From contig NZ_LQBN01000004.1 of the NCBI RefSeq assembly GCF_001507535.1, positions 186,001 to 250,000 on the forward strand: a stretch of 64,000 bases of DNA. The letters are read 5' to 3'. This stretch comes from Thiomicrospira sp. WB1 (lineage in GTDB: Bacteria; Pseudomonadota; Gammaproteobacteria; Thiomicrospirales; Thiomicrospiraceae). The notes below the pieces were generated by a model. The model had not been told where the DNA came from, did no database searches, and saw nothing but the letters and a program-made list of their open reading frames with translations. Below, one piece after another: positions 1 to 18,632 of the stretch (position 1 is its first letter; every line of letters starts with the position of its first letter). The translations under genes and the position numbers were made by a program.

Positions 1-1
1 C

Positions 2-3000
2 ATCACCGATGCTTCCGGGCGCACCCTGTCGGGCCAGACCACCGAAGCGTTTTACAATGCCGTGGCCCACGCCAACCCTCTGTCGGTGGGCCTGAACTGT
101 GCCCTGGGGCCGGAAGAGCTGCGCCGTTATGTGGGCGAACTCAGCCGCGTCTGTGAAGCCTATGTGTCGATCCACCCCAATGCGGGCCTGCCCAATGAAT
201 TCGGTGAATACGACGAAAGCCCCGAACAGATGGCGCACGAAATTGCGATCTGGGCGGAAAAAGGCTGGATCAACATCATCGGCGGCTGCTGCGGCACCAC
301 GCCTGACCACATCGCTGCCTTTACCCAGGCGATGAAAGACCACACCCCACGTGCCCTGCCCGAAATCGCCCCCGCCTGTCGTCTATCAGGGCTCGAGCCG
401 CTTAACATTGACGAGGACAGCCTGTTTATCAATGTGGGCGAGCGCAACAACGTCACCGGTTCGGCCAAATTCAAGCGCCTGATCATCGAAGACAACTTTG
501 ATGAAGCCATCGACATCGCGGTCAAACAGGTGGAAGACGGCGCGCAGGTGATCGATGTCAACATGGACGAAGGCATGCTCGATGCCAAAGCCTGCATGGT
601 CAAATTCCTCAACCTGTTGGCCAGTGAACCCGACGCTTCGCGCGTGCCGATTATGATCGACTCGTCCAAATGGGAAGTGATCGAGGCCGGACTCAAATGC
701 ATTCAGGGCAAAGGCATCGTCAACTCCATCTCGCTCAAGGAAGGCGAAGACGCCTTCATGAAACAAGCCAAGCTGGTTCGCGACTATGGCGCGGCGGCGA
801 TCATTATGGCGTTTGACGAAGACGGTCAGGCCGACACGCTCAAGCGCAAAATCGAAATCTGCGAACGCTCCTACCGCGTGCTGGTGGACAAGGTCGGCTT
901 TCCGCCGCAGGACATCATTTTCGATCCCAATATTTTTGCCGTGGCCACCGGGATCGAAGAACACAACCGCTATGGCCTCGACTTTATTGAGGCAGTGCGC
1001 TGGATCAAACAGAACCTGCCTTACGCCAAGGTCTCCGGCGGTGTGTCCAATGTGTCCTTTTCCTTTCGTGGCAACAACCCGGTGCGTGAAGCGATTCACT
1101 CGGTGTTTCTGTACTATGCGATCAAAGAAGGCATGGACATGGGCATCGTCAACGCCGGACAGATGGCGATTTATGATGAAGTGCCGGTCAAACTGCGCGA
1201 CGCGGTCGAAGACGTGGTCCTCAACAAAGATCCGGAAGCCGGCGAACGCCTGCTCGAAATCGCCGAAGAATACCGAGGCGATGGTCAGGCCGCCAGCAAG
1301 GAAACCGATATTGCCTGGCGCGAAAACACCGTGGAAAAACGCCTGGAACATGCGCTGATCAAAGGCATCACCGATTACATTGAAGACGACACCGAAGAGG
1401 CCTATCAAAAACTGGGCGCGCCGATCAATGTGATCGAAGGCCCGCTCATGGACGGCATGAACATCGTCGGCGACCTGTTCGGGTCGGGCAAAATGTTCCT
1501 GCCGCAGGTGGTCAAATCGGCGCGCGTGATGAAACGGGCCGTGGCCTATCTCGACCCTTACCTGCAGGCGGAAAAAGCCGAAGGCCAGGTCAAAGGCAAA
1601 ATCGTGCTCGCCACCGTCAAGGGCGATGTGCACGACATCGGCAAAAACATCGTCGGCATCGTCTTGCAGTGCAACAACTTTGAGGTGATCGATCTGGGCG
1701 TCATGGTCCCGGCCGAAGACATTCTCGACGCCGCCGAAAAAGAAAACGCCAATGTGGTGGGCTTAAGCGGCCTGATCACGCCCTCACTGGAAGAAATGGT
1801 CAATGTCGCCAAACAGATGCAGGAGCGCGGCATGCAAGTGCCCCTGCTGATCGGCGGGGCCACCACCTCCAAAGCGCACACCGCGGTCAAAATCGAACCG
1901 CAGTACGACCATCCGGTGGTGTACGTCAAAGACGCCTCCCGCGCCGTGGGCGTGGCGCAAAGCCTGATTTCACATGACAAAAAAGCGGCGTTTGCCGACA
2001 AAATCCGCGCCGAATACGCCGAGGTGCGCGAAGCGCGCAAAGCCCGCGCCAAAGAGGTCAAGCGGGTATCGATCAAACAGGCGCGTCAGAATCCAGCCCT
2101 GAAAACACTGGACGACCAGGCCTGGTCAGATTTCACGCCGGTCAAGCCAAGCTTTTTGGGGGTCAAGGTACTGGAAGACTTCCCGCTGGAAACCCTGCTG
2201 GAACGGTTTGACTGGTCGCCCTTTTTCCAGGCCTGGGAATTGCACGGCAAATACCCCCGCATTCTGGACGACAAGGTCGTGGGCGAAGAAGCCAAAAAGG
2301 TCTTTGCCGATGCTCAGGCCATGCTCAAACAGATTATGAACGAAAAATGGCTCACCGCCAAAGCCGTCTATGGCTTTTACCCCGCCAACCGCGTGGGCGA
2401 CGACATTGAGGTCTACACCGACGACACCCGCAGCGAAGTCTTGACCCGCTTTCATCATCTGCGCCAGCAGGCGGAGAAAAAGCGCGGCGGGGCCAACAAC
2501 TGCCTGTCCGATTTCATCGCCCCCAAAGACAGCGGTGTGGCGGATTACATCGGGTTCTTTGCGGTCACCGCGGGCATCGGCATCGACGAGCATGTGGCCC
2601 GGTTCGAGGCCGCACACGACGACTACCATGCAATCATGCTCAAGGCACTGGCGGACCGCTTTGCCGAAGCCTTTGCCGAGGCCCTGCATGAACGGGTCCG
2701 TAAGCAGGATTGGGGCTATGCCCCGGATGAGACGCTGGACAACGATGACCTGATTCGCGAGCGGTATCAGGGCATTCGTCCGGCCGCGGGTTACCCGGCC
2801 TGCCCCGACCACACCGAAAAAGGCATCTTGTGGGATCTGTTGCAGCCGGATGAACGCATTGGGCTCGAGATCACCGAATCCTTTGCCATGACGCCGACCG
2901 CGGCCGTCTCCGGCACCTACTTTGCCCATCCCGACAGCCGCTACTTCGGCGTCGGGTCCATCGGTCGTGATCAGGTCGAAGACTATGCCGAGCGCAAAGG

Positions 3001-3073
3001 CTGGACCTTTGCCGAGACCGAAAAATGGCTGGCCCCGAACCTGGGCTATGACCCTGAAGATTTTGCCAATTAA
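2..3073 (+). CDS. metH: Cobalamin-dependent methionine synthase, 5' end cut by window
   Basis: MetH transfers the methyl group of methyltetrahydrofolate to homocysteine through cobalamin, in the cytoplasm. The frame is open from base 2 with no start, so about 200 residues of the usual ~1220 are missing and 1023 are visible. Visible in order: the end of the homocysteine domain with zinc ligands GLNCALG (about 86-109) and GGCCGTTP (281-304); the pterin-binding barrel; the cap; the cobalamin domain with GDVHDIG (1621-1641), whose His is the lower cobalt ligand; and the activation domain with [12 protein letters not shown] for S-adenosylmethionine. Two copies of the AGGCCT palindrome lie in this gene, one in the linker before the activation domain. 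A GTG at 62 is internal, not the start. Confidence 0.97.
2115..2126. repeat. ACCAGGCCTGGT palindrome inside metH
   Basis: Full 12-bp copy, flanked G and C so that 14 bp are palindromic. It is read as Asp-Gln-Ala-Trp in the linker before the activation domain. Confidence 0.85.
2227..2236. repeat. CCAGGCCTGG core inside metH
   Basis: Ten-bp core after a run of T. It is read as Gln-Ala-Trp in metH, about 100 bp after the previous copy. Confidence 0.7.
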
Positions 3074-3088
3074 TCAAAAGCGACCCTC

Positions 3089-3376
3089 ATGAAAAAACGT
3101 CTGCAACAACTCGCCGCGCCCATTTTGACACCACTGGAGCAGTCAGAGGGGGCCTACCATTACAGCCCGTCCCACCGCAAGGTCCTTAAAATCATGGGAT
3201 TTTTGTTTGTGATACTCGGCGGTGTGGGACTTTATTTTTCCCTGCTTGCTGACATTCTGGCGGGCCTGTTTCCGGTGATTCTGTTTACCGGCATTGGCCT
3301 GCTGTGCCTGATTGTGGGCTATCTGGGCAGCGACAAAGCCGTGGCCAAACTCTGGCGCAATCGCCAGGAAAGCTAA
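3089..3376 (+). CDS. Small two-helix membrane protein, unknown function
   Basis: A 95-residue protein I do not recognise. Its N-terminal ~33 residues are polar with a basic start, followed by two hydrophobic segments at about 34-54 and 58-80 and a short basic tail ending NRQES. That is the shape of a small inner-membrane hairpin protein. It starts 15 bp after the metH stop with no clear ribosome binding site, so translation may be coupled to metH. Coding status rests on the clean hydrophobic pattern and the tight spacing. Confidence 0.65.
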   Translation: MKKRLQQLAAPILTPLEQSEGAYHYSPSHRKVLKIMGFLFVILGGVGLYFSLLADILAGLFPVILFTGIGLLCLIVGYLGSDKAVAKLWRNRQES

Positions 3377-3408
3377 CCCGCCGCCTTCACCTTTGCCAGC
3401 CACTGCGT

Positions 3409-3432
3409 TTGCGCCAGTGCGCAACCGGTTGC
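3409..3432. other. Two overlapping inverted repeats after the small membrane gene
   Basis: TTGCGC-CAGT-GCGCAA (3409-3424) overlaps the perfect palindrome GCAACCGGTTGC (3421-3432). They cannot form together. No T run follows, so this is not a convincing intrinsic terminator. Confidence 0.35.
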
Positions 3433-3457
3433 AGTCGACTAAAAATTAGCCTAGACT
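3429..3457 (+). promoter_or_regulatory. Predicted promoter of the tro-type metal transport operon
   Basis: A -35 hexamer TTGCAG (3429-3434) and a -10 hexamer TAGACT (3452-3457) are separated by 17 bp. Transcription would start near 3464, giving a leader of about 67 nt before the binding-protein gene. The operator below covers the -10. Confidence 0.5.
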
Positions 3458-3459
3458 AA
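3446..3459. promoter_or_regulatory. DtxR/MntR-type operator candidate
   Basis: TTAGCCTAGACTAA is a 14-bp palindrome with one mismatched pair. It contains TTAGCCTA, the centre of the classical DtxR consensus, followed by CTAA. It overlaps the predicted -10 of the metal transport operon, whose last regulatory gene encodes a DtxR-family protein, so autogenous metal-dependent repression is likely. Confidence 0.55.
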
Positions 3460-3530
3460 ACATTAAATTAGATCGTCCTACCGGGCGCACTCATGTTGTG
3501 CGCGCAATGAACGCAATGAGAGGTTGCCAC

Positions 3531-4469
3531 ATGCCCCGTTTCTCGACCCGTCTGCCGAACCTGACTCAACCGCTTGCCATCCTTGGCCTGATGCTGAGTG
3601 CTTTTCTGACCAGCCCTCTGGCTCAGGCCCAACTGAAAGTCACGGCCACAACGGGCATGATCGCTGATCTGGTGACAAACATTGCCCAAGACAACGCGCA
3701 GGTTCAGGCGCTGATGGGCGTGGGGGTGGACCCGCATCTTTACAAAGCGACTCAGGGCGACATTCGCAAACTCAGCCGGGCCGACATCATCTTTTACAAC
3801 GGGCTGCACCTTGAAGGCAAAATGCAGCCCATTTTCGAAAAAATGAAACGCCGCCAGACCGTGGTCGCCGTCACCGAAGACCTGCCAGAAAAACACCTGA
3901 TTCCCTACGATGCGCTGCATGATCCCCATGTCTGGTTTGATGTCAGCCTGTGGCAGATGGCCGCACAAAAAGTGGCGGCCACGCTTTCGGCCAAAGACCC
4001 GGCCAATGCCGACAGCTACCAGAAAAATTTGCGCATGTATCAACAACAACTGGCGCAACTGGACCAATGGGTGCGCGCCCAGATCGACGAGATTCCAGAA
4101 GGCAAACGGGTACTGATCACCGCACACGATGCCTTCGGCTATTTCGGCAAGGCATACGGTCTGGAAGTCATGGGGTTGCAGGGCATCAGCACGGCCGGTG
4201 AATTTGGCCTGCAGGACATTAAACACCTCAAGGACATCATTGTGGAACGCGATATTCAGGCGGTGTTTGTCGAAACCAGCGTCTCGCCCAAATTCATCCA
4301 ATCCCTCGTCCAGGGGGTTCAGGCCGAAGGTAAAAACGTTCAGGTCGGGGGCGAACTCTATTCCGACGCCATGGGCGCCGAAGGCTCGGGCGCTGAAACG
4401 TATCTCAAGATGGTTCGCCACAATGTGCGCACCATCCGTGACGGACTGCTGGGAGCCATTCATGAGTAA
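3531..4469 (+). CDS. troA: Metal ABC transporter substrate-binding protein, TroA-like
   Basis: Periplasmic cluster A-I binding protein that would deliver Mn, Zn or Fe to the permease encoded downstream. The ATG at 3531 has AGAGG eight bases upstream and gives a typical signal peptide ending near AQA (residues 31-33). An upstream GTG at 3498 is less likely. The 312-residue protein shows the four family ligands: His69 (DPHLY), His133 (DPHVW), His199 (HDAFGYF) and Asp279 (YSDAM). This His-His-His-Asp set and spacing match TroA rather than the His-His-Glu-Asp of manganese-specific PsaA. Its stop overlaps the start of the ATPase gene. Metal specificity is not settled by sequence. Confidence 0.92.
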   Translation: MPRFSTRLPNLTQPLAILGLMLSAFLTSPLAQAQLKVTATTGMIADLVTNIAQDNAQVQALMGVGVDPHLYKATQGDIRKLSRADIIFYNGLHLEGKMQPIFEKMKRRQTVVAVTEDLPEKHLIPYDALHDPHVWFDVSLWQMAAQKVAATLSAKDPANADSYQKNLRMYQQQLAQLDQWVRAQIDEIPEGKRVLITAHDAFGYFGKAYGLEVMGLQGISTAGEFGLQDIKHLKDIIVERDIQAVFVETSVSPKFIQSLVQGVQAEGKNVQVGGELYSDAMGAEGSGAETYLKMVRHNVRTIRDGLLGAIHE

Positions 4470-5247
4470 CCAACCGCCGCTCAAGGTCGATCAGCTTTCG
4501 ATCCGTTACCACCACAAGCCGGTGCTCACGGATGTGAGTTTTGAAATCCCGCCCGGCCAAACCGTGGCCATTGTGGGCCCCAACGGCGCGGGCAAATCCT
4601 CCTTGCTCAAGGGCATTATGAACCTCACGCCCGCGATACAGGGCAAGGTGCAATTTTACGGTCGTACATTGGAGGAAAAACGCCTGACCACCGCCTATGT
4701 GCCTCAGCGCGAGGAAATCGACTGGGATTTTCCCATCAATGTGATGGATGTGGTGCTGATGGGGCGCCACGGCCAACTCAAATTCTGGCAGCGCCCCAGC
4801 CGATGCGACCGCCAGATTGCCGAGCAGGCGCTCAAGGACCTGAAAATGTGGGACTTCCGTGACCGCCAGATTGCTCAACTTTCCGGTGGGCAGCAACAAC
4901 GCGTGTTTCTGGCGCGTGCGCTGGCGCAACAGGCCAGTCTTTACCTGATGGACGAGCCCTTTGCGGGGGTCGATGTGGCCACAGAAAAAACCATTATCGA
5001 GCTGTTCAAACAACTCAAAGCCAAAGGCAACACCGTGGTCTGCGTCCACCACGACCTCAACACCGTCGGCGAATACTTTGACCACGTGATTTTGATCAAC
5101 GCACGTCTGATTGCCGCTGGCCCGGCGCACCAGGTTCTGACCCAGGCCAACCTCAACAAAACCTATGGCGGTCGCCTGTCCCTGCTCAACGACCTCACGG
5201 AGCAGATGTACCGCAGCCGCCTCGATAACGCTCACCCAGGCGACTAA
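4462..5247 (+). CDS. troB: Metal ABC transporter ATP-binding protein, TroB-like
   Basis: Cytoplasmic ATPase subunit of the metal importer, 261 residues. Walker A GPNGAGKSS (39-47), Q-loop region YVPQRE, signature LSGGQQQR, Walker B LYLMDEPF and H-loop VHHDL are all intact. The ATG at 4462 overlaps the binding-protein stop by 8 bp, which implies translational coupling. The frame is open further upstream, but those residues resemble no ABC protein. The permease gene starts 6 bp after this stop. Confidence 0.93.
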   Translation: MSNQPPLKVDQLSIRYHHKPVLTDVSFEIPPGQTVAIVGPNGAGKSSLLKGIMNLTPAIQGKVQFYGRTLEEKRLTTAYVPQREEIDWDFPINVMDVVLMGRHGQLKFWQRPSRCDRQIAEQALKDLKMWDFRDRQIAQLSGGQQQRVFLARALAQQASLYLMDEPFAGVDVATEKTIIELFKQLKAKGNTVVCVHHDLNTVGEYFDHVILINARLIAAGPAHQVLTQANLNKTYGGRLSLLNDLTEQMYRSRLDNAHPGD

Positions 5248-5253
5248 GGCGCG

Positions 5254-6615
5254 ATGATGAACGGTTTCGAACCTTACAATGACCCCGGCTTTTTGGCCCA
5301 GGCCTGGCAACAATTGGGGGTCTTCTGGTCCTTTGACGACATGAACGCCACCTGGGTGCTGGTCGGCAGCCTGCTGTTGGGCATGAGCGCCTCCGTGATC
5401 GGCGCCTTTGCGTTTCTACGCAAACGCTCCCTGCTGGGCGATGCGCTCGCGCATGCGGCCCTACCCGGTGTGATGATGGCGTTTTTGCTCAGCGGCAGTC
5501 GGGACGCGGAAATCATTTTTGCGGGGGCACTCGTCTCCAGTCTGCTCGGGTTCTGGCTGATCGACTGGCTCCCCAAAAACACCAAAATCAAACCCGATGC
5601 CGCGCTGGCCATCACCCTGTCATTTTTCTTTGCGCTGGGCCTGATGCTGCTCTCCTACATCCAAAACACCAGCCTGCCCGATAAAAGCGGACTGGATAAA
5701 TTACTGTTCGGCCAGGCCGCCGCCATCACCTCAAACGACATTGACCTGCTGCTTTATGTCACCACCCTGGTCCTGGTGACGGTGGTGGTGTTTTTTCAGA
5801 AATTTCGGCTGATTGCCTTCAATCGTGTGTATGCGGAAACGCTGGGCGTGCCGGTACGCTTTTACGAAGTGGTGCTGGCCATTCTGATCGTGCTCTCAGT
5901 GGTGGTCGGTCTGCAACTGGTCGGGGTGGTGCTCATGGCCGCGATCCTGCTCACGCCGATTGCCGCCGCCCGTTTCTGGAGTCACCAGTTAAGCCACCTA
6001 TTAACGCTGGCGGCTTTGTTTGGCGCTTTAAGTGCCTCGCTGGGCGCTCAGATTTCCTATGTCGCGCCCGCCATGCCCACAGGGCCCTGGATTGTGGTCA
6101 GTCTGTCGCTGTTGTTTTTTATCAGTTTCATTTTTGCCCCAAGACAGGGGCTGATCAAACGCTATCTGGACGACCGAGCGCTCAAACAACGCGTCATTCA
6201 GGAAAACATTCTGCGCACCCTCTACAAGCTGCTCGAGCGCTCGCACTTTCAGCGCAACGGCTTCAGTCTGGCTGAGATCACCGAACTGCGCTCAATGTCA
6301 GGTACGGAACTGAGAAACCGCCTGGCAGAAATGGTTCGCCGAGGCTGGGTGAAACAGAACCGACAACAATACGCCCTGAGCGAAAAAGGCCTTTTGAAAG
6401 CGGTGAAACTGACCCGACGTCACCGTTTATGGGAAAGCTATCTGAGTCAGCACGCCGACATGACCTCGGATCAGGTGCATCAACAGGCAGAGCGCATCGA
6501 GCATATTCTCAACCGGGAACAGGAAGAGCAGATCGTGGCCGAGCTGATGGAACACTTTGACCCCCATGGCGCGCCCATTCCCGGCTTGTCGGACAATCAG
6601 GGGCACCCTTCATGA
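5254..6615 (+). CDS. troC: Metal ABC permease fused to a C-terminal DtxR-like domain
   Basis: Inner-membrane permease of 453 residues. Residues 1 to about 290 form a multi-helix ABC-3 permease with the RKRSLLGDALAHA motif near helix 2. Residues about 310-453 are soluble and resemble the winged-helix and metal-binding/dimerisation parts of DtxR proteins (RHRLWESYL, EHFDPHGAPIP), without the FeoA/SH3-like tail. The stand-alone regulator in this operon has the matching string THDPHGSPIP. Such fusions occur in TroC-like permeases. The tail may sense metal or gate transport, but that is inference. Two ATG codons lie in tandem at 5254 and 5257. The stop overlaps the next ATG. Confidence 0.88.
   Translation: MMNGFEPYNDPGFLAQAWQQLGVFWSFDDMNATWVLVGSLLLGMSASVIGAFAFLRKRSLLGDALAHAALPGVMMAFLLSGSRDAEIIFAGALVSSLLGFWLIDWLPKNTKIKPDAALAITLSFFFALGLMLLSYIQNTSLPDKSGLDKLLFGQAAAITSNDIDLLLYVTTLVLVTVVVFFQKFRLIAFNRVYAETLGVPVRFYEVVLAILIVLSVVVGLQLVGVVLMAAILLTPIAAARFWSHQLSHLLTLAALFGALSASLGAQISYVAPAMPTGPWIVVSLSLLFFISFIFAPRQGLIKRYLDDRALKQRVIQENILRTLYKLLERSHFQRNGFSLAEITELRSMSGTELRNRLAEMVRRGWVKQNRQQYALSEKGLLKAVKLTRRHRLWESYLSQHADMTSDQVHQQAERIEHILNREQEEQIVAELMEHFDPHGAPIPGLSDNQGHPS
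5298..5307. repeat. CCAGGCCTGG core inside the permease gene
   Basis: Ten-bp core read as Gln-Ala-Trp near the N-terminus of the TroC-like permease, before the first membrane helix. Confidence 0.65.
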
Positions 6616-7547
6616 GCACGCTGTTTCAATCATTCAACCTGTCTGACTGGGTATTGGATCTGTGGATACTGGCCACCGCCAGTCTGGTAGCGGCCGCGTG
6701 TGCCCTGGTCGGAGTGTTTCTGATTCTACGCCGTCAGGCCCTGATGGGCGATGCCATCTCACATTCCGTCCTGCTGGGCATTGTGCTGGCGTATCTGATC
6801 TCCGGCACCAACGCTTTATGGGTGATGCTCCTGGGTGCGGTGATCATCGGTCTGGTCACCGCCTGGCTGTCCGAAACCCTGCATAAAGTCAGCCGGTTAC
6901 AGAGTGATGCCAGCATCGGCATTGTCTTTACCCTGTTTTTTTCCATCGGGGTGATTCTGGTATCGCTCTACACCGGTCAAATCGATCTGGATCAGGAGTG
7001 CGTCCTTTATGGGGAAATTGCCTTTGTGCCGTTTGACACTGTGATCTGGGGCGACATGGAAACCGGCACCGACCTCGGGCCGCGCGCATTCTGGCTGATT
7101 CTGATTGTCTTTGCGGTCGTTTTGATCAGCCTGCTGGTCGGGTTTGAACGCTTGAAAACCGTCACCTTTCACCCGAGTCTGGCGGTGTCGCTGGGGATCA
7201 ACATTACCTTTTGGCATTATTTTCTGATGACACTGGTGTCCATGACCACCGTCGCCTCGTTTGACGCCGTCGGCGCCATCCTGGTGGTGGCCTTGCTGAT
7301 CATCCCGGCTGCCACGGCCTACTTGCTGGCCCGCTCTTTGAAAACCATGCTGTGGTTGGCCGTCGCCTATTCTCAAATGGCTGTCTGGCTGGGCTACGCC
7401 ATCGCCTTCTGGCTCAACAGCGCCATTGCCGCTGCCATTGCGGTCAGCGCCGGATTACTGATGGGACTCACCCTTGTGTTGATACAGCTGAGCAAACAGT
7501 ACCATAAACGGACTCATGCACATCCATTGCGTCAGATCAAGGATTAA
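6612..7547 (+). CDS. troD: Metal ABC transporter permease, TroD-like
   Basis: Second permease subunit, 311 residues. It has about eight hydrophobic segments and the family motif RRQALMGDAISHS after helix 2. It starts with ATG at 6612, overlapping the first permease stop by four bases (ATGA). Unlike its partner it has no DtxR-like tail and ends in a short basic segment. Two different permeases in one operon indicate a heterodimeric channel, as in TroCD. The regulator gene follows after 5 bp. Confidence 0.92.
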   Translation: MSTLFQSFNLSDWVLDLWILATASLVAAACALVGVFLILRRQALMGDAISHSVLLGIVLAYLISGTNALWVMLLGAVIIGLVTAWLSETLHKVSRLQSDASIGIVFTLFFSIGVILVSLYTGQIDLDQECVLYGEIAFVPFDTVIWGDMETGTDLGPRAFWLILIVFAVVLISLLVGFERLKTVTFHPSLAVSLGINITFWHYFLMTLVSMTTVASFDAVGAILVVALLIIPAATAYLLARSLKTMLWLAVAYSQMAVWLGYAIAFWLNSAIAAAIAVSAGLLMGLTLVLIQLSKQYHKRTHAHPLRQIKD

Positions 7548-7552
7548 CCCTT

Positions 7553-8272
7553 ATGCCTCGCCCCTCTGCCACAGTCAAAACAGCCCCGTCTCGCGCGTGG
7601 GAAGATTACCTGAAAATCATTTATAAGCTGGAAAGCCTCACTCCGGCGAACAAAGGCGTGCAGACCAAAGACCTGGCCGAGCGACTGGCGGTCTCCAAAG
7701 CATCGGTGACCAACATGCTTAAAAAACTGGCCGAGGAAGCTCTGATTCAGCACGAACCCTATTACGGCGTCAGACTCACCGATTCAGGCCGGAAAATTGC
7801 CATGAAGATGATCCGCAACCACCGCATTCTGGAAAGTTACCTGGTGGCCCGCCTGGGCTACTCCTGGGATGAAGTGGACGAAGAGGCCGAGACCCTCGAG
7901 CACTTTCTGTCAGACAAACTGGTGGACCGGATGTGGAATGATCTGGGCCAGCCCACGCATGACCCCCACGGCTCTCCGATTCCGGATGTGGATGGTCATA
8001 TTGAAAACAAGCCGCTGCCGGCTTTGTCTCATCTGGAACACAATACACCGGTGCGGGTTGCACGCATCAAAAACCGTTCGCCCGAAGAACTGCGTTATCT
8101 GGCGTCGATCGGTCTGCATCTTGGCAGTCGTATCGTGGTCAAAAACCAGGCGCCATTTAATGGTCCCCTGCTGATCGAAATCGACGGCGCGCAACTGCAT
8201 GCTCTGGATCATCGCATGGGACTGGCCATTCACGTCACCCCCGCCCACGAGGCCGATTCACCGCATGTCTGA
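7553..8272 (+). CDS. troR: DtxR-family metal-dependent repressor, TroR/MntR-like
   Basis: A 239-residue cytoplasmic repressor. Order: winged helix (about 18-80, with DLAERLAVSKASVTNML), metal-binding and dimerisation domain (RNHRILESYL, EAETLEHFLS), then a C-terminal FeoA/SH3-like domain (about 160-235). Being last of the transport genes, it probably represses this operon through the TTAGCCTA-type site at 3446-3459 when metal is sufficient. The order binding protein, ATPase, two permeases, regulator matches the treponemal troABCDR operon. Whether Mn, Fe or Zn is the corepressor is not decided by the visible residues. Confidence 0.9.
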   Translation: MPRPSATVKTAPSRAWEDYLKIIYKLESLTPANKGVQTKDLAERLAVSKASVTNMLKKLAEEALIQHEPYYGVRLTDSGRKIAMKMIRNHRILESYLVARLGYSWDEVDEEAETLEHFLSDKLVDRMWNDLGQPTHDPHGSPIPDVDGHIENKPLPALSHLEHNTPVRVARIKNRSPEELRYLASIGLHLGSRIVVKNQAPFNGPLLIEIDGAQLHALDHRMGLAIHVTPAHEADSPHV

Positions 8273-9314
8273 GCAAACATTGCATGCATCGCTCTTAACC
8301 GAAACGGCGCATCTATTGCCCCTGATTCGCCGGGATGCCCCAGTCGCGGAACAGCAGGGCCATCTGACCGAGGCGGTTTTGCAGGCGCTCTATCAACTCG
8401 ACCTGTTTCGGCTCTTCGTCTCGCCGCGTTATCAGGGACTCGGTGCCGATCTGCCCACCTCTCTGAATGTGTTCGAGCTTATCGCCTCAGCCGACGGAGC
8501 CACCGGCTGGTTGGTGATGATCGGTGCCGGAGGTGGGCTCTTTTCCGGCTTTTTACCCGCCGAGACGGCGGCGTCGATCTTTCAATCCAATCGTTCGGTG
8601 ATTGCCGGGTCGGGCATGGCCGGTGGCACCGCAATACCGATCCGAAACGGCTATCGGATCAGCGGCCGCTGGCCCTACGCCAGCGGGGCTTACCACGCCA
8701 CCACCTTTACCGCCAACTGCACCCAGGGGGCGGACAAACCACTGCTGTCCGTGGCCATGCCTGCCGAGGCCGTCATCCGACACGACACCTGGCGCGCCAT
8801 CGGCCTTCAGGCCACCGGCAGCCACGACTTCAGTGTGAACAACCTTTCGATCCCGGCTCAGGCGACCTTTTCGCTGGAAGCGACCCCCTATCTGAATGAA
8901 CCGATTTATCATTGCCCGCTGGACACACTGGCGCATGCATCGTTTCTCAGTGTGGCGCTGGGGCTTGTCAAATCGGCCCTGAACGCGTTTGAACAATCTT
9001 TTTCCTTGTTGCCTTCCGACCCGCGCTACCAGGCCTGGGTAGACGTTCATACCCACTGGCAGACCAACCGAAAGGCGTTTTATCATCAGGTGGAAAAACT
9101 CTGGCACAGCCTGACCACGCAGCAAGGACTGACGCCAACCGACCGCTTCCTTTTTTACCAGGCCTGCCTGGTCTGGCTGGAAGACGGCCTGACAGGGGTG
9201 GATCAGTTAAAACGGCATGCGGGCATGATGGCGATTCGCCCCGATTCCGACTTCGGGCGGGCCTGGCGCGACCTGCAGACCCTCAGCCAGCATGCCCTGC
9301 TGGCACCGCGCTGA
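8265..9314 (+). CDS. Acyl-CoA dehydrogenase-like flavoprotein of unknown substrate
   Basis: A 349-residue protein with the acyl-CoA dehydrogenase fold: N-terminal helical part, a beta part with GSGMAGGTAIP, GYRISGRWPYASGA and ATGSHDF, and a C-terminal helical bundle. It resembles the branch near HpaB-type and DszC-like flavin monooxygenases more than fatty-acid dehydrogenases, but no substrate can be read. The ATG at 8265 overlaps the regulator stop by 8 bp, so it is probably translated as the last gene of the metal operon, which is an odd partner. Two AGGCCT-motif copies are in its C-terminal half. Confidence 0.8.
   Translation: MSEQTLHASLLTETAHLLPLIRRDAPVAEQQGHLTEAVLQALYQLDLFRLFVSPRYQGLGADLPTSLNVFELIASADGATGWLVMIGAGGGLFSGFLPAETAASIFQSNRSVIAGSGMAGGTAIPIRNGYRISGRWPYASGAYHATTFTANCTQGADKPLLSVAMPAEAVIRHDTWRAIGLQATGSHDFSVNNLSIPAQATFSLEATPYLNEPIYHCPLDTLAHASFLSVALGLVKSALNAFEQSFSLLPSDPRYQAWVDVHTHWQTNRKAFYHQVEKLWHSLTTQQGLTPTDRFLFYQACLVWLEDGLTGVDQLKRHAGMMAIRPDSDFGRAWRDLQTLSQHALLAPR
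9029..9038. repeat. CCAGGCCTGG core inside the acyl-CoA dehydrogenase-like gene
   Basis: Ten-bp core preceded by A. It is read as Tyr-Gln-Ala-Trp. Confidence 0.65.
9157..9166. repeat. One-sided ACCAGGCCTG copy with T-rich flank
   Basis: Preceded by six T, like the intergenic copies, although it is inside a gene and read as Tyr-Gln-Ala-Cys. Confidence 0.55.
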
Positions 9315-9466
9315 CCCCATAGCAGAGCCATCGTGATCTTCGTTAAATTAAATGCTCTGATACCCCATAATATTATTTTATGGTTAGACAAAAAAGCTCT
9401 TTTTGCAGTCGTGACCACGGCCTTTTAAAATAAGTTTTCATTCACCGAATTAAATAAGAAACGCGT

Positions 9467-9955
9467 ATGGAAGTCATTGTCTGGAGCGCCTGGTTGGCCG
9501 GGCTGGCCATTGGGTTGTTCGTGATATTTCATTTCTGGCTGATGGGCAAACCCGCTGGCTGCTCGACCGGCTACGGCAACATCTGTGGTCTGGTCTGTCA
9601 GCGTGTGCCTTATTTCCGCCAGGGAGAATACCGCCACCTGAACAACGCCAAGCTCTGGTTCCTGCTCGGCATTCCGCTGGGCGGGCTGCTCAGTGCGCTG
9701 AGTTCCCCCGAGCCCTGGCATTTCAGCTTCAGCATGGGCATGTACGATGACATCCTGCCACAAACCTACGCCGGCAAGGCCATCTGGCTGGTGTTCGGCG
9801 GGGCGTTGCTCGGATTTGGCGCGCGACTGGCAGGCGCCTGCACCACCGGTCATGCCCTGGTCGGCGGTGCCATGCTCAACCCGCCGAGCCTATTGGCAGG
9901 CGTGATTTTCTTTTTGAGCGCTTTTTTCACCACCCATCTGCTGTTCGGCACCTGA
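9467..9955 (+). CDS. YeeE/YedE-family sulfur transport protein, first half
   Basis: A 162-residue inner-membrane protein with four hydrophobic segments and the family cysteine motifs PAGCSTGYGNICG (near residue 30) and GACTTGHALVGGAM (near residue 125). Full-length YeeE/YedE transporters carry thiosulfate or related sulfur compounds through a cysteine relay. Here the transporter is split into two adjacent genes. The preceding 150 bp are AT-rich and may hold the promoter. A sulfur role fits the sox genes nearby, but the substrate is inferred. Confidence 0.85.
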   Translation: MEVIVWSAWLAGLAIGLFVIFHFWLMGKPAGCSTGYGNICGLVCQRVPYFRQGEYRHLNNAKLWFLLGIPLGGLLSALSSPEPWHFSFSMGMYDDILPQTYAGKAIWLVFGGALLGFGARLAGACTTGHALVGGAMLNPPSLLAGVIFFLSAFFTTHLLFGT

Positions 9956-9967
9956 GGAGGCAGACCC

Positions 9968-10480
9968 ATGTACGAAGAGTCTTTGTTCAAACGCTGTCGC
10001 AATACACTGGTGTCGGGGTTTTTTGTCTACCGAACCCAGATATTTGGCTTACTGACCGGCATTCTGTTTGGCTTTCTGATGAGCCGGGCCGGCGCCACCA
10101 CCTATGACTACCACGCCAAGATGTTCCTGTTCGAAGACTTTCAGTTGATGATTGTCATCGTCACCGCTGTGATCATTGCCATGCTCGGGGTCTGGCTGCT
10201 GAAAAAAACCCACATTCATGCGGTCGCCACTGGTGAAGAAGTGGATTTTGTCAAAAAACCCTACCAGAAAGGCCTGATGATTGGCGCCGCCCTGTTCGGT
10301 GTCGGCTGGGGCATGACCGCCTCCTGTCCCGGCACGATTCCGGCCATGATCGGCGAAGGCAAAATCGCCGGTTTGTTTGCCCTGGCGGGCATTCTGATCG
10401 GGACCATGGCTTACGGCATTCTGCAAAGCCATCTTCAGCTGGCCAAACAACAGGCAAGCCGCTCAACGGATGCCAATTAA
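9968..10480 (+). CDS. YeeE/YedE-family sulfur transport protein, second half
   Basis: A 170-residue inner-membrane partner of the previous protein, 12 bp downstream, with a strong ribosome binding site GAGGAGG (9955-9961). It has an N-terminal cytoplasmic stretch, four hydrophobic segments, and the family cysteine in GMTASCPGTIPAMIGEG. The two halves probably assemble as one pore. The C-terminus is polar and ends after the last helix. Confidence 0.85.
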   Translation: MYEESLFKRCRNTLVSGFFVYRTQIFGLLTGILFGFLMSRAGATTYDYHAKMFLFEDFQLMIVIVTAVIIAMLGVWLLKKTHIHAVATGEEVDFVKKPYQKGLMIGAALFGVGWGMTASCPGTIPAMIGEGKIAGLFALAGILIGTMAYGILQSHLQLAKQQASRSTDAN

Positions 10481-10493
10481 TCCGGTCTTAACG

Positions 10494-10526
10494 GCCTCGT
10501 TTTGCCGTTGAAACGCGCAACGAGGC
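10494..10526 (+). terminator. Weak hairpin after the YeeE/YedE pair
   Basis: GCCTCGTT (10494-10501) pairs with AACGAGGC (10519-10526) around a 17-nt loop. The downstream tract is only pyrimidine-rich, so termination would be inefficient. Confidence 0.35.
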
Positions 10527-10603
10527 ACCGCTCCTTTCTCTTCTAAGCACTTGTGATCCAACAAAAAATCCGGGGTTTCACCAAAAAGGCGGCAGGGTTT
10601 CTG

Positions 10604-10609
10604 TATAAT
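10604..10609 (+). promoter_or_regulatory. -10 element upstream of typA
   Basis: TATAAT preceded directly by TG. No good -35 is found at 16-18 bp. The typA start is 32 bp downstream. Confidence 0.5.
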
Positions 10610-10640
10610 ACGCCCTTTTTGAAACACCCAGAGAGATTCC

Positions 10641-12467
10641 ATGAAGACCGATCACATTCGTAACATCGCCATTATTGCCCACGTTGACCACGGCAAAACC
10701 ACCCTGGTTGACCAGCTACTGCGCCAATCGGGCACCTTTGATGAAGTGCGCAAAGACATGGGTGATCGGGTCATGGACTCCAATGATCTGGAAAAGGAAC
10801 GTGGGATCACGATCCTTTCCAAAAACACCGCCGTCAACTGGCATGATTTCCGCATCAACATCGTTGACACCCCGGGCCACGCCGACTTTGGTGGTGAGGT
10901 GGAGCGTATTTTGTCCATGGTGGACTCGGTACTGCTGCTGGTCGATTCCGTGGAAGGTCCCATGCCTCAGACACGCTTTGTGACCGAAAAGGCCCTGCAA
11001 CAAGGGCTCAAGCCGATTGTGGTCATCAACAAAATCGACCGTCCCGGTGCCCGTCCGGACTGGGTACTGGATCAGACCTTTGATCTGTTTGACCGTTTGG
11101 GTGCCACCGACGAACAGATGGATTTTGACGTCATCTACGCTTCGGGCCTCAACGGTTTTGCCGGTCTGGAAGACGACGTGCGCGATGGCGACATGGAACC
11201 GATCTTCAAAATCATTACTGAAAATGTTCCGGCGCCGGACGTGGACATTGCCGGTCCTTTCCAGCTGCAGTGTATTTCTCTGGATTACGACACCTATAAG
11301 GGCGTCATCGGCACTGGCCGTATCAAACGCGGCGCGGTGGAAGCCGGTATGAGCCTGACCATCATCGGGGCCGACGGCAAAGAGCGCAAAGGCAAAATCG
11401 CCGAGCTGTTTGGCTACCACGGGCTGGATCGTGTCAGCGTGGACGAAGCCCATGCCGGTGACATCGTCGCCTTCACCGGGCTGGACCCGCTCAATATCTC
11501 CGACACGCTGTGCGATCCCAATCATGTGGAAGCGCTGCCGCCACTGACGGTGGATGAACCCACGGTAAGCATGACCTTCCAGGTGAATGACTCGCCGTTT
11601 GTCGGCCAGGACGGCAAATTGCTGACCTCACGTCAGATTCGCGAGCGTCTCGACAAAGAACTGCTCACCAACGTGGCGCTGCGCGTGGAAGAAACCGAAG
11701 ACGCCAACAAATTCCGAGTGTCCGGACGTGGTGAACTGCACCTGTCTGTATTGATCGAAAACATGCGCCGCGAAGGCTATGAAATGGCGATTTCGCGTCC
11801 GGAAGTAATTTTCCGCGAAATCGACGGTGAGCGTTGCGAACCCTATGAAAACCTGACCGTAGACATTCCGGAAGAAGCGCAAGGCTCGATCATGGAAAAA
11901 CTGGGCGAGCGCAAAGGCGAAATGCAGGACATGGTCCCGGACGGTCACGGTCGCGTACGCATCGATTTCATCATCCCATCCCGCGGCCTGATCGGCTTCC
12001 GTACCGAATTCATGACCGCCACCCAGGGGCATGGTCTGATCTTCTCCAGCTTCTCGCACTATGGCCCAACCTTCAGTGGCGACATCGGCGAGCGCAACAA
12101 CGGCGTATTGATCGCCAATGCTCAGGGCAAGGCACTGGCGTTTGCGCTGTTCAACCTGCAGGACCGTGGCAAGCTGTTCATCGGTCACGGCGAAGACGTG
12201 TACGAAGGCATGGTCATTGGTCTGCACAGCCGCAGCAATGACCTGACGGTCAATGCCCTGAAAGGCAAACAGCTGACCAACGTGCGGGCCGCGGGCACCG
12301 ACGAAGCGCTGACACTGGTTCCACCTCAGCGCTTTACGCTGGAACAGGCGCTGGAATTCATCGACGACGATGAACTGGTGGAAGTCACCCCACAGCACAT
12401 CCGCATTCGTAAGAAACACCTGACCGAAAACGAGCGCAAACGCGCCGGGCGCAGCAAAAAGGGCTGA
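10641..12467 (+). CDS. typA: Ribosome-associated GTPase TypA/BipA
   Basis: A 608-residue translational GTPase related to elongation factor G, involved in 50S assembly and in growth under stress. G1 [10 protein letters not shown]2 region [13 protein letters not shown]3 [11 protein letters not shown] and G4 NKID are intact, followed by the beta-barrel domain, EF-G-like domains and the basic BipA C-terminal domain. Length matches the family. The start follows GAGAG in the leader. The dtd gene begins 6 bp downstream, suggesting cotranscription. Confidence 0.97.
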
Positions 12468-12473
12468 TCGGCC

Positions 12474-12923
12474 ATGATCTGCCTGTTGCAGCGGGCCACG
12501 CAAGGCCAAGTCAGCGTGGACGGTCGCATCATCGGTCAGATTTCACCAGGCCTGGTGGTTTTGGTGGGGTTTGAACCCGATGACACCGACCAGACGCTGG
12601 CCAAAATGACGCACAAACTGCTGCATTACCGGGTGTTTGCCGACGAAAACGGCAAAATGAATCGGAACGTGCAGCAGGCGTGTGACGGCCAGGGTGGAGA
12701 GTTGCTGCTGGTGCCTCAGTTTACGCTGGCAGCTTCCACCCAGAAGGGGCTGCGTCCCAGTTTTCACACCTCTGCCCCACCGGACCAGGCGCAGACATTA
12801 TTTCAGACGTTTTGCGAGCGCATTACCCAGGCGTATCGTCCCCCTCAAACCGGTGAATTCGGAGCGGACATGCAAGTCTCCCTGACCAATGACGGCCCGG
12901 TCACCTTTTGGCTGCAAACCTGA
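12474..12923 (+). CDS. dtd: D-aminoacyl-tRNA deacylase
   Basis: Removes D-amino acids, and glycine from tRNA-Ala, as a proofreading dimer. The 149-residue protein has the two family signatures VPQFTLAAST (the usual motif is SQFTL) and NDGPVTF, which form the active site across the dimer. The N-terminus MICLLQRAT matches the family. The gene contains a full ACCAGGCCTGGT palindrome read as Pro-Gly-Leu-Val. It lies 6 bp after typA. Confidence 0.95.
   Translation: MICLLQRATQGQVSVDGRIIGQISPGLVVLVGFEPDDTDQTLAKMTHKLLHYRVFADENGKMNRNVQQACDGQGGELLLVPQFTLAASTQKGLRPSFHTSAPPDQAQTLFQTFCERITQAYRPPQTGEFGADMQVSLTNDGPVTFWLQT
12545..12556. repeat. ACCAGGCCTGGT palindrome inside dtd
   Basis: Full copy, 14-bp palindrome with flanking C and G. 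It is read in the Pro-Gly-Leu-Val frame. Confidence 0.85.
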
Positions 12924-12997
12924 TTCCGGGGTGGTTTCACGCTTTTTTTTTGCCGATAAAGGGTTTACACTGAGAACTCACAACCACGGGTTTTTCC

Positions 12998-15106
12998 ATG
13001 TCTCAATCGCACGCGTCTCTATCGTCTGATCTGACCCGCCTTCATGGCCAGCCCGCGCATGTCCTTGTCATTGATGATGACAAGGTCTCACGCCTGACCA
13101 TCGCCAAGGTTCTGGAAAAGGAAGGCTTTCGAGTCACGCAAGCTGAAAACGGGCGCGTCGGCTTCTCAGCCTTTCTCAATGCGCTGCCCGATCTGATCCT
13201 GATGGACGTCCTCATGCCGGAGATGGATGGCTTTGCCACCACCGAGGCCATTCGCAATTACGAAAAAGAACGCGCCATCCCCATTTTGATGCTGACCGCA
13301 CTGGAAGACATCACCTCCATTGATCGTGCCTTTCAAGCCGGGGCCACCGACTTCATCACCAAACCCATTAACTGGTCACTGTTGAGTCAGCGCGTCAAAT
13401 ACGCCATCAAAGCGTCCCTGACCGAAGACGCCTTACGCGTCAGTCAGGCCCAGCTGAGCTTTGCCCAACAGCTGGCCAAACTCGCCTACTGGGAATGGGA
13501 TGCGGTCAATGACCGCGTCAGCGGGACCGGTTTTGCCTTTGAACTGTTCGGCATTCCCAATCAAGCGGATGTGACCCTGGAGCAGTTTCTGTCCAACATC
13601 GAGGCCAAAGACAAGCCACTGGTGCAACAGGCCATTGCCGACGCCAGTCAGGGCTACAATGACATTCAGGTCAGTTTTCGAGTGCATCATCATGAAGGGG
13701 CCCCCCTTCACATCGACCTGTTGGGCGAAGTCTTTTTCAACGACCGCCATGAAATGGTCAAAGTCATCGGTTCGGCTCAGGACATCAGCCGCCTGCACAA
13801 AGCCGAAAGCCTGATTGATTATCAGGCCAGCCATGACAAACTCACTGATCTGGCCAACCGGTCGTTCTTTACCAAAGCCCTCAACACCTTCTTGAATGAA
13901 GCGCGGCCTGACCGCTTCAGTGCCACGGTGATTTTCGACATCGACAGTTTCAAAAAAATTAATGACAACCTGGGTCAGGAGCAAGGGGACGAGCTGCTGC
14001 GTAAAATGGCACAGCGACTCAATCGAGTGACCCGTGAAGATGACTTTGTGGCACGACTGGGCAGTGACGAATTTGCCATCATCATCAAAAACGCCCAGGA
14101 TGAACAGGAATTGGGCCTGAGTCTGACCCGCCTTTTTCAAGCCCTGTCCAAACCCTATCAGATCACCTCCCAGGAACTGTTTATCACCCTGTCTATGGGC
14201 ATCAGCCTGCTGCATCAGGATGGCGCGGAAGCCAGTGAACTGATTGCCCACGCCAACATGGCACGGACACAGGCCAAGCAGGACGGCGGGAACAAGTACC
14301 TCTACTATCAGGCACAGATGAATGCCCACTCCAAAGAACAGTTGATTCTGGAAAACGATTTACGCAAAGCGCTGGAACGCAACGAAATTGAAGTCTATTA
14401 TCAACCGCAGGTGGACGGTCAGACCCTCAAACCCTATGGCGCTGAAGCGCTGGTGCGCTGGAATCATCCAGAAGCCGGCGTGATCTCACCCGGGATTTTC
14501 ATTCCCATAGCCGAAAGCAGCGGCCTGATCGACGACATCGGGCACTATGTCCTCAAAACCGCCATGCACCAGGCCAAACACTGGCATCAAAACGGCTATG
14601 ACGACCTGCACATTGGGGTCAACCTGTCCGGGCGCCAGTTTTCTCACAACGACCTAATTCGTCAGGTGCAGACCTTGTTAACCGAATCCGGTCTGCCGCC
14701 CCGTTTTCTGGATCTGGAAATCACCGAAAGCCTGGCCATGAGCAATGCCGATCACAACATCAGCATTCTCAAAAGCCTCAAAGCCATGGGTGTGTCGCTT
14801 TCCATCGATGATTTCGGTACCGGCTATTCCTCACTCGCCTACTTACAGAGTTTTCCCATTGACACCATCAAAATCGATCGCTCGTTCATCGTCAACCTGG
14901 AAACCAACGAGGGCCAGGCGATTGTTCGCACCATTCTCGCCATGGCCGAAAGTCTGAATCTGCAGGTGGTCGCCGAAGGCATCGAAGAAGAATTTCACAT
15001 CGCTTTTCTGCAGAACAAAAACTGCGCGGTCTTCCAGGGCTTTAAATTTGGCAAGCCCATGCCTGCGGACGCATTCGACGAATTTTTGCGCCATAACGGC
15101 ACTTAA
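12998..15106 (+). CDS. Response regulator with PAS, GGDEF and EAL domains
   Basis: A 702-residue cytoplasmic c-di-GMP enzyme under phosphorelay control. REC (about 20-135) has the phosphoacceptor Asp70 in LILMDVLMPEMDG. A PAS-like region follows (about 150-258). The GGDEF domain (about 270-435) has the degenerate signature GSDEF (355-359) but keeps an RxxD inhibitory site (REDD). The EAL domain (about 450-695) is intact, with EAL at 483-485 and DDFGTGYSS. Phosphodiesterase activity is therefore likely and cyclase activity uncertain; the GGDEF part may be a GTP sensor. The HPt gene 70 bp downstream is a plausible phosphodonor. Confidence 0.92.
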   Translation: MSQSHASLSSDLTRLHGQPAHVLVIDDDKVSRLTIAKVLEKEGFRVTQAENGRVGFSAFLNALPDLILMDVLMPEMDGFATTEAIRNYEKERAIPILMLTALEDITSIDRAFQAGATDFITKPINWSLLSQRVKYAIKASLTEDALRVSQAQLSFAQQLAKLAYWEWDAVNDRVSGTGFAFELFGIPNQADVTLEQFLSNIEAKDKPLVQQAIADASQGYNDIQVSFRVHHHEGAPLHIDLLGEVFFNDRHEMVKVIGSAQDISRLHKAESLIDYQASHDKLTDLANRSFFTKALNTFLNEARPDRFSATVIFDIDSFKKINDNLGQEQGDELLRKMAQRLNRVTREDDFVARLGSDEFAIIIKNAQDEQELGLSLTRLFQALSKPYQITSQELFITLSMGISLLHQDGAEASELIAHANMARTQAKQDGGNKYLYYQAQMNAHSKEQLILENDLRKALERNEIEVYYQPQVDGQTLKPYGAEALVRWNHPEAGVISPGIFIPIAESSGLIDDIGHYVLKTAMHQAKHWHQNGYDDLHIGVNLSGRQFSHNDLIRQVQTLLTESGLPPRFLDLEITESLAMSNADHNISILKSLKAMGVSLSIDDFGTGYSSLAYLQSFPIDTIKIDRSFIVNLETNEGQAIVRTILAMAESLNLQVVAEGIEEEFHIAFLQNKNCAVFQGFKFGKPMPADAFDEFLRHNGT

Positions 15107-15179
15107 TCCATGTTCAAAAGTGCTTTTTTCTTTAAAAGGCCAGCCGAAAGAATTAGAGTATTACGCTTAAAGATTGTCC

Positions 15180-15551
15180 GTGAGTGACCCAATGACCGAA
15201 CACGCCGATGACGCGCCTCTGGACCTGAACAACCTGGCCATGCTCAAGGATTTGATCGGAGACGACCTAAAACCCATTGTTGAAGGTTTTGCAGCGCAAA
15301 TCCCGTTACTGCTGCGCCAGATTGAACAGGCGCTGGAAGAGCAAGAGGCCGCTGATCTGATCTTGCATGCTCACACATTAAAAGGCAGTTCAGCCAATGT
15401 CGGTGCCCGTCCGTTGGCGGATGTGGCCGCTCAACTGGAGCAGGCAGGTAAAAACCAAGACTGGCATCAGGCGGATGCATTGCTGACCCGGACGAAAGTC
15501 GAGTCAGAGAAAGCACGCGTTGCCAGCGAAGCATTCATCGCTCAATTTTGA
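15180..15551 (+). CDS. Histidine phosphotransfer (HPt) protein
   Basis: A small helical protein of about 123 residues with the HPt signature AHTLKGSSANVG, whose His accepts and passes phosphate between receiver domains. The start is uncertain: TTG 15174, GTG 15180 (with AAAG about 8 bases before) and ATG 15192 are in frame. I chose GTG. It follows the REC-PAS-GGDEF-EAL gene on the same strand and probably exchanges phosphate with that REC domain. The sensor kinase is not in the window. Confidence 0.85.
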   Translation: MSDPMTEHADDAPLDLNNLAMLKDLIGDDLKPIVEGFAAQIPLLLRQIEQALEEQEAADLILHAHTLKGSSANVGARPLADVAAQLEQAGKNQDWHQADALLTRTKVESEKARVASEAFIAQF

Positions 15552-15586
15552 GCTTCTCCGAATCTTGATTTGATATAGGAACCATC

Positions 15587-16201
15587 ATGCGCTATCAAGT
15601 GACAAAAGACGAAAAATTTCTGGCCAAAAACCCGCATCACATCTTCAACCTCAACATTCTGATCACGCACCTGGCCATTTCCAAAGTGGCGCTGGAACTC
15701 GGCGGCGGCAACCCTTTCTATTTTCTCATGGTGCCGGGTATCTCTCTGCTGGTCATCGCTTACCTTTATTTCCACGGCCAAAAAGTCCAGACACGGGGTT
15801 CCTGGTTTGTGTCTGCGCACTGGATGCTGGCCTGGCGCCGGGGGCGCAACCTGATCATCTCTTATGCCGTGGCAGTGGTGGTGTTGGTTCTGGCAACCAT
15901 TCTGGGCAATGTCTTCGGCGGTGGTTTGATGATGAATGATTTTTCAGATTCCGGCTCCTCCACCTCCATCATCCAGAAAATCGGCATGTTTTTCGCCGGT
16001 GTGGTGGTGTTTTTCACCGTGCTTTATAACTTCCTGCAGACGGGGATTTCGGTGTATGACGCGGGCAAAGGCATCATCGATAAAAAGATTGAACGGTTCC
16101 TACCCAGAGATGCGAATGCCAATGTCGAAATCGGCGAAGGCGACGAACCGGTCAAGCGTGACGACGAGGAGCAACAGGCGGACTCGGAGAAATCCTCATG
16201 A
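15587..16201 (+). CDS. Membrane protein of unknown function
   Basis: A 204-residue protein that I do not recognise. Hydrophobic segments lie at about 44-62, 88-110 and 132-152, with a possible fourth at 21-38, followed by a highly charged cytoplasmic-type tail rich in Asp, Glu and Lys. AGGA lies 7 bases before the ATG. Its stop overlaps the next ATG by four bases, so the two products probably act together. Confidence 0.75.
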   Translation: MRYQVTKDEKFLAKNPHHIFNLNILITHLAISKVALELGGGNPFYFLMVPGISLLVIAYLYFHGQKVQTRGSWFVSAHWMLAWRRGRNLIISYAVAVVVLVLATILGNVFGGGLMMNDFSDSGSSTSIIQKIGMFFAGVVVFFTVLYNFLQTGISVYDAGKGIIDKKIERFLPRDANANVEIGEGDEPVKRDDEEQQADSEKSS

Positions 16202-16859: not shown

Positions 16860-16878
16860 GGGGAGTTGTGAGGGAGGG

Positions 16879-17367: not shown

Positions 17368-17383
17368 GAGCGTTTCCTTTTTT

Positions 17384-17393: not shown

Positions 17394-17394
17394 C

Positions 17395-18612: not shown

Positions 18613-18632
18613 ACAGGCTTCCTTGTAATTCG

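Follow-up and report, generated by a model that had tools for sequence, protein, structure and literature searches.

The third gene of a five-gene operon-like run in the window (the whole stretch of 64,000 nucleotides analysed here) encodes an ABC-3 permease whose C-terminal tail, about residues 300-443, is confirmed as a DtxR-type winged-helix and metal-binding/dimerisation module. Across the tails of the window's family the six ligand positions of the metal domain are constant and the DNA-recognition helix has drifted, whereas that of the separate MntR is firmly conserved. We propose, with a probability of roughly one half, that the tail would act as a cytoplasmic metal-sensing domain feeding back on transport, a reading that draws on sequence comparison and modelling. 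We favour it over a cleaved repressor similar to YtgR of Chlamydia and over a partner of MntR. The computed support comprises homology, predicted fold, ligand positions, gap-free coupling to the permease, purifying selection and drift of the recognition helix.

Organisation of the operon

The five genes lie on the plus strand between 3498 and 8272 in the order binding protein, ATPase, tailed permease, second permease and MntR, and neighbouring genes overlap or are at most 7 bases apart (Table 1). The solved structure closest to the binding protein is TroA (E 1.8e-80), and the one closest to the permease is PsaC, from the manganese importer of the pneumococcus (E 5.6e-38). Because of these closest solved relatives, manganese or iron is the likely substrate. 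The ATPase possesses only ATPase-type Pfam matches, and a cytoplasmic substrate-binding domain of the MetNI/ModABC kind was not found in it.

Table 1. Features of the operon and of the tailed permease (positions in the window)
Feature	Position	Strand	Evidence or remark
Candidate operator TTAGCCTAGACTAA, imperfect dyad 5' of the operon	3446..3459	+	presumed target of the separate MntR
Periplasmic metal-binding protein (ZnuA/TroA family)	3498..4469 (start uncertain; candidates 3498, 3507, 3516 or 3531)	+	PF01297, E 8e-84
ABC ATPase	4462..5247	+	ABC_tran, E 1.7e-30
Permease with C-terminal DtxR-like tail, 453 aa	5254..6615	+	Pfam and full-length model
ABC-3 permease domain, residues 33-294	5350..6135	+	PF00950, E 2.3e-64; model vs PsaC 7kyp, TMt 0.89
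Linker and tail helix 1, residues 295-336, one predicted helix 300-329	6136..6261	+	gap-free 286-326 in 29/29; model
Drifted winged-helix (HTH) segment, residues 337-385	6262..6408	+	modelled two helices and two-strand wing; least conserved tail part
Metal-binding/dimerisation segment, residues 386-443, with H390 E394 H409 E413 E416 H417	6409..6582	+	PF02742, E 5e-19
Second permease, without tail	6612..7547	+	PF00950, E 1.7e-50
Separate MntR/TroR-type repressor (HTH, metal/dimer and FeoA domains)	7553..8272	+	PF01325 1.8e-15, PF02742 5.2e-29, PF04023 1.3e-14

The sequence TTAGCCTAGACTAA is the best match to the dyad pattern in the window, with 1 mismatch, and is likely a putative MntR operator. 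A site with at most 3 mismatches to TTAGCCATGGCTAA was found upstream of the binding-protein gene in 15 of 19 operons compared, the window having 3 mismatches. The operator-like dyad has two further exact matches elsewhere in the genome, one between genes that we take to be infC and rplT, and the other between a small ORF and sox-type genes; given these positions, the dyad search revealed no metal regulon. No known RNA element was matched by Rfam at gathering scores in positions 1-20000. Downstream of the operon, at 9467-9955 and 9968-10480, lie paired small membrane proteins that each match part of PF04143 (sulphur transport), presumably of the YeeE/YedE type.

Identity and predicted fold of the tail

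The reading frame at 5254-6615 is open throughout its 453 codons and is present in 13 of 13 fused relatives (its own included), which rules out a read-through artefact. One chain carries both the ABC-3 domain (PF00950) and the DtxR metal/dimer domain (PF02742), and both folds appear in one model. The PF02742 match covers residues 377-443 and scores 68.5 bits against a cut-off of 27. The FeoA domain of the separate MntR has no Pfam match in the tail.

The original prediction, that the tail resembles the repressor encoded two genes later, was borne out, with 42 of 138 residues identical by BLASTP (30%, E 2e-15) and the repressor in the position described. Searches of the tail sequence against DtxR-family structures returned SloR (2.4e-11), IdeR (from 2.3e-10) and DtxR (from 3.4e-10). 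An AlphaFold2 model of the tail from 69 sequences reached a mean pLDDT of 79.1 and a pTM of 0.69, and Foldseek matched this fold to IdeR with E 5.2e-07 and probability 1.00; among the best 50 matches listed, every one was DtxR, IdeR, MntR, SloR, ScaR or DR2539. The structure prediction thus gave a DtxR-like fold, and not the unrelated one that the same prediction had named as its refutation. Since sequence matches and predicted fold agree, the likeness is homology, and chance resemblance is ruled out.

The full-length model, built from 32 sequences, has a mean pLDDT of 90.4 and a pTM of 0.82, with confidence declining toward the C-terminus, where the last three blocks have values of 67, 58 and 34. 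It superimposes on PsaC with TMt 0.89 and on DR2539 with TMt 0.84 (rmsd 1.9). The last permease helix (276-294) is followed by a short turn and the single helix 300-329, then by helices 339-345 and 350-363, strands 366-369 and 372-375, and helices 377-400, 405-418 and 421-430.

Metal sites

In DtxR, site 1 is formed by H79, E83 and H98, and site 2 by M10, C102, E105 and H106 (PMC2628430). The window tail possesses H390, E394 and H409 at the site 1 positions, and N318 (in helix 1), E413, E416 and H417 at those of site 2. The metal-binding/dimerisation domain of a DtxR/MntR repressor is therefore present together with its ligand residues, and the loss of all ligands, the second outcome that would have told against the original prediction, did not occur.

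Among 69 tails the positions equivalent to H79, E83, E105 and H106 are constant (69/69), a constancy partly selected, as the loci L035-L114 were recovered with two metal-domain motifs. The H98 position holds H in 60 tails and D in 9, the C102 position is E48/D16/H3/M2, and the M10 position is N32/H27/D7 with 3 gaps. In the 13 tails of the window's family, which were found via the whole protein and are unaffected by motif selection, the six metal-domain positions read H, E, H, E, E, H in 13 of 13, and the M10 position is N in all 13.

Divergence of the DNA-binding part

The DtxR N-terminal HTH model PF01325 had no match in the 453-aa permease at E up to 1, and the window tail thus lacks the PF01325-recognised HTH of a DtxR/MntR repressor. 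At E up to 0.001, PF01325 matched 0 of 69 fused tails versus 45 of 47 separate repressors, and PF02742 matched 69 of 69 and 47 of 47. The repressor set consists of 49 separate frames minus a fused-tail fragment (L068), an 80-aa fragment (L076) and a frame without the motif (L091), with the window MntR added.

Twelve genomes of the family, leaving out G005 in which MntR was not found, gave 66 pairs for comparison. Mean identity was 68.5% for the permease, 35.1% for the fused HTH and 60.6% for the fused metal part, versus 71.3% and 81.8% for the HTH and metal part of MntR in the same genomes. The fused HTH was less identical than the MntR HTH in 66 of 66 pairs, and the MntR HTH less than the MntR metal part in 63 of 66. 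Part of the drift of the fused HTH reflects generally faster evolution, because the fused metal part was also less identical than that of MntR in 65 of 66 pairs. Compared with MntR, the tail as a whole evolves faster, and its HTH fastest.

An ungapped comparison of 24 tails with 20 repressors located this drift. Invariant columns numbered 5 versus 17 of 48 from the HTH to the wing, 17 versus 20 of 32 in the metal part, and 9 versus 7 of 16 in helix 1. In the 13 columns of the recognition-helix window, 8 were invariant in the 20 MntR versus 1 or 2 in the 24 tails at each of three registers, at which the comparison was repeated because it could be off by one there. The tail set leaves out the insert-bearing G002, G009, G013, G008 and G005 and four duplicate-genome loci, and L039 and 3 of 23 repressors were dropped because their spacing did not fit. 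The recognition helix is hence unconserved across tails, while the modelled winged-helix fold and the basic charge persist.

Other measures were compared across lineages. The HTH/metal identity ratio, taken from pairs with metal-part identity of 0.60 to 0.95 (three tails being three residues short), was 0.63 in the family tails, 0.52 in Cytophagia tails and 0.47 in other Chlamydiia. It was 0.78 in the genus-Chlamydia set, which was assigned by inference, including the WWW motif in 13 of the 20 loci L225-L244 (L088 and L100 are Chlamydiae), and 0.89 (family MntR) and 0.93 in separate repressors. With this ratio of 0.78, the best-kept HTH among the fusions belongs to the sole fusion group with published DNA binding. 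Column information for HTH and metal part was 1.71/2.73 bits in the 69 tails, 2.61/2.86 in the 47 repressors and 1.88/3.18 in 49 Chlamydiia tails (L234 was dropped from the Chlamydiia sets for an unreadable base). Fused tails and separate repressors could not be told apart by the net charge of the HTH, which is +5 in the window tail and +3 in the window MntR, with means of +1.9 in fused tails (65 of 69 measured), +2.7 in separate repressors (45 of 47) and +6.0 in Chlamydiia tails (49 of 49).

Nonetheless, failing PF01325 does not prove loss of DNA binding, because 0 of 49 Chlamydiia tails match this model and YtgR is described as binding operator DNA. This published activity, of an HTH likewise missed by Pfam, is the main evidence against the sensor. 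Drift also does not simply follow from the presence of a separate MntR, since the Chlamydiia outside the genus-Chlamydia set, in 24 of 30 of which a second regulator was not seen, have the most drifted HTH.

Joining stretch and selection

The 41 residues 286-326, which connect the last membrane helix with helix 1, align without gaps in 29 of 29 sequences. In 5 of 13 family tails (G002, G009, G013, G008 and G005), an insert of 8-12 residues separates helix 1 from the metal part. For the permease, the nine closest pairs gave a dN/dS of 0.007-0.055, and for the HTH 0.066-0.184; the metal part gave 0-0.099 in the 7 of 9 pairs where it was computable. The tail is a maintained domain under purifying selection.

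These values bear on whether the tail could be a vestige, an accidental fusion without function. The absence of the tail in two parts of the family tree and the drifting HTH would suit a vestige, but the low dN/dS of the metal part, the constancy of four ligand positions across 69 of 69 tails (in part a product of the search motifs) and the fusion in 61 of 63 Chlamydiia genomes make it highly improbable.

An alternative with a published precedent is that the tail, cut off or active while tethered, would be a second metal-dependent repressor with its own operator. The homologous YtgCR of Chlamydia is described as cleaved, and its YtgR as binding DNA (PMC5599777, PMC6504234). The fold kept by the tail, and its basic HTH (net +5) under purifying selection, argue for this alternative and likewise count against the sensor. 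However, the exposed recognition-helix letters already differ between the fusions of the window and of G012, which share 77% identity, and those of MntR are nearly fixed. The HTH/metal identity ratio is also lower here than in the genus-Chlamydia set or in the family MntR, and the operon already encodes a full MntR. Release of a free tail from an internal start at V314 was set aside, as the codon of this conserved residue varies among relatives (GTC, GTT, GTA and GTG) and no conserved start therefore exists there; the joining stretch is moreover without gaps. Taken together, we consider a second repressor unlikely in the window.

Distribution and evolutionary history

The motif search recovered 80 loci, 60 with 68 fused frames and 20 with separate genes only; some of the fused frames are cut by contig ends or frameshifted (L040, L065, L075 and L087), and some extend far upstream since they were read from stop to stop. 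Fusions were found in Gammaproteobacteria, Alphaproteobacteria, Hydrogenedentota, Planctomycetes, Bacteroidetes, Kapabacteria, Chlorobiota, Chlamydiae and a Bacillota MAG. One further record, labelled Armatimonadetes, is almost identical to that from Chlorobiota and may reflect a binning error. Fused frames occur in 7 of 274 genomes of the sampled class, and in 398 genomes of the phylum, with at most 9 candidates scored per genome, only the window's own was seen. With a profile headed by the window tail, fused frames were detected at E no higher than 4e-32 in 58 of 63 Chlamydiia genomes, and at any listed E in 61 of 63.

A separate DtxR-type regulator (PF02742) accompanies the fusion in 24 of 27 hand-picked genomes, the match of G313 containing a stop; 28 genomes had been picked, and G178 and G308, which share coordinates, were counted once. 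The single-contig genome G005 (L017/L104) has no PF02742 match besides the fused copy, and no separate PF02742 protein was found in two Chlamydiae MAGs, G305 and G306. In the alphaproteobacterial genomes and most of the Planctomycete-type ones, the separate regulators are short, at 153-187 aa; that of G314 has 239 aa. Of 9 Planctomycete-type loci, 8 have tails on both permeases and the other is truncated by a contig end, and these doubly tailed loci would suit a paired sensor beneath the transporter. The 7 Planctomycete-type genomes of the 27-genome set were chosen for the look of their loci, and both permeases are fused in all of them. The doubly tailed loci are L058, L059, L067, L071, L076, L090, L093 and L101, and the HTH part of their second permease is barely recognisable by eye.

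The original prediction offered two roles, direct sensing of cytoplasmic metal or pairing of the tail with the repressor. The former is the better supported, and the latter lost ground. Pairing through the shared dimer interface could tether or titrate MntR at the membrane; both proteins carry the DtxR metal/dimer domain, and their genes lie side by side here and in G012, G018 and G031. Nevertheless, the tail is present in G005, G305 and G306, where no separate PF02742 protein was found, and the separate regulators elsewhere are often the short ones described above. Its persistence in G005 and in 55 of 61 fusion-bearing Chlamydiia genomes without a second match (the profile favours fused tails, and some second regulators may have been missed) weakens such a pairing further, and we regard it as decidedly unlikely. 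For the sensor, the tail kept in G005 without a separate regulator is favourable.

A quick tree of 62 permeases, in which the other C-type rows (outgroups) were all chosen for having tails, places eight tail-less family members in two places among the tailed ones, on starred branches. If the tail is ancestral, this reads as two losses. The tail-less relatives in two parts of the tree indicate that the permease can do without the tail, which counts against the sensor. Tail-less G003 and G006, of the same genus and about 60% identical over the permease, speak against a role in handling metal, whereby the tail would take the imported ion at the permease exit and hand it on, or would stabilise the permease. 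The conserved ligand positions and the fixed placement past the last membrane helix are consistent with such handling, but for a mere chaperone a two-site DtxR module that has a dimer fold is in our judgement an odd choice, and we hold this role to be very unlikely.

The window fusion shares 77% identity with its counterpart in G012 and 58% with the one in G005. The protein at 10641-12467, which we take to be TypA-like, is 95% identical to its counterpart in G005 and 86% to that in G012. Since the two markers compared point to different relatives, the operon at 3498-8272 and its MntR were probably acquired horizontally from a Thiomicrorhabdus-like donor.

Proposed mechanism and significance

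We infer metal binding, the identity of the metal, the direction of the effect on transport, dimerisation and the loss of DNA binding from the features described above, and the sensor would operate as follows. The tail would derive from a DtxR/MntR-type repressor that is no longer held to reading DNA. Cytoplasmic Mn2+ (or Fe2+) would fill the conserved sites and thereby alter the shape of the module or bring it together with another tail. The stiff helix beside the last membrane segment would pass this change to the permease and slow uptake, a feedback of the trans-inhibition type, while the separate MntR would handle transcription on a slower time scale. The partner in a DtxR-type dimer could be the tail of a neighbouring transporter, the other chain of a C homodimer or MntR, and in Planctomycetes the tails of C and D.

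Permease-repressor fusions were found in 11 phyla by Thompson et al., according to the review PMC5599777, so the breadth of the distribution is not new and the permease-DtxR fusion is an already known architecture. What is added here is the contrast between metal sites and DNA-reading part. Among the titles and abstract beginnings listed, no paper dealt with such a fusion outside Chlamydia. That the fusions may regulate transcription throughout bacteria is a published extrapolation from Chlamydia (PMC5599777). Outside the genus Chlamydia, the lineages measured appear to have a loosely constrained DNA-reading part, fixed metal sites and usually a dedicated repressor alongside, and this contrast questions extending the Chlamydia model to the window's fusion. 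Tentatively, and with somewhat less confidence than for the window itself, the tail across bacteria may be mainly a metal-gated feedback valve, and YtgR a derived form of it, the valve domain having been recruited, or retained, as a repressor that can be released where a separate MntR is lacking. If true, a transcription-factor domain would have become a post-translational sensor on a manganese/iron importer, and slow gene control would be supplemented by rapid feedback. The natural tail-less relatives of the same genus make the sensor directly testable.

Comparison with known systems

Similar to the window, the ytgABCD operon of Chlamydia encodes an ABC-3 permease with a C-terminal DtxR-type module, YtgCR, and has the gene order A-B-C(R)-D (binding protein, ATPase, fusion, permease). 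YtgR is homologous to the window tail, as the profile search with the latter finds the Chlamydiia fusions, and these share with it the failure to match PF01325. In contrast to YtgCR, a separate full MntR is present in the same operon here, the HTH is more drifted than in the genus-Chlamydia set, and the WWW motif is absent from the window protein, by reading of the sequence. Within the Chlamydia-type YtgR tails (L225-L241) the HTH is missed by PF01325 and yet fairly well kept. DNA reading by such an HTH deserves a structure.

The troABCDR operon of Treponema has the order A-B-C-D-R and a separate repressor, as in the window, and its TroA is the solved structure closest to the window's binding protein. 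TroR is reported with N at the M10 and E at the C102 position (PMC2628430), a combination also found in the window tail. TroC is listed in the same source with 304/298 aa, which would be too short for such a tail.

PsaC of PsaBC (7KYO, 7KYP) resembles the window permease in fold and sequence, with chains of 282 and 290 aa and no DtxR tail. Trans-inhibition by fused cytoplasmic domains is established for the methionine and molybdate importers MetNI and ModABC (PMC10710835), in which the domain binds the imported substrate and inhibits transport; the same mode is proposed for the window. The regulatory domains of this kind described in that source have other folds and sit on the ATPase, which counts against the sensor, whereas that of the window sits on the permease.
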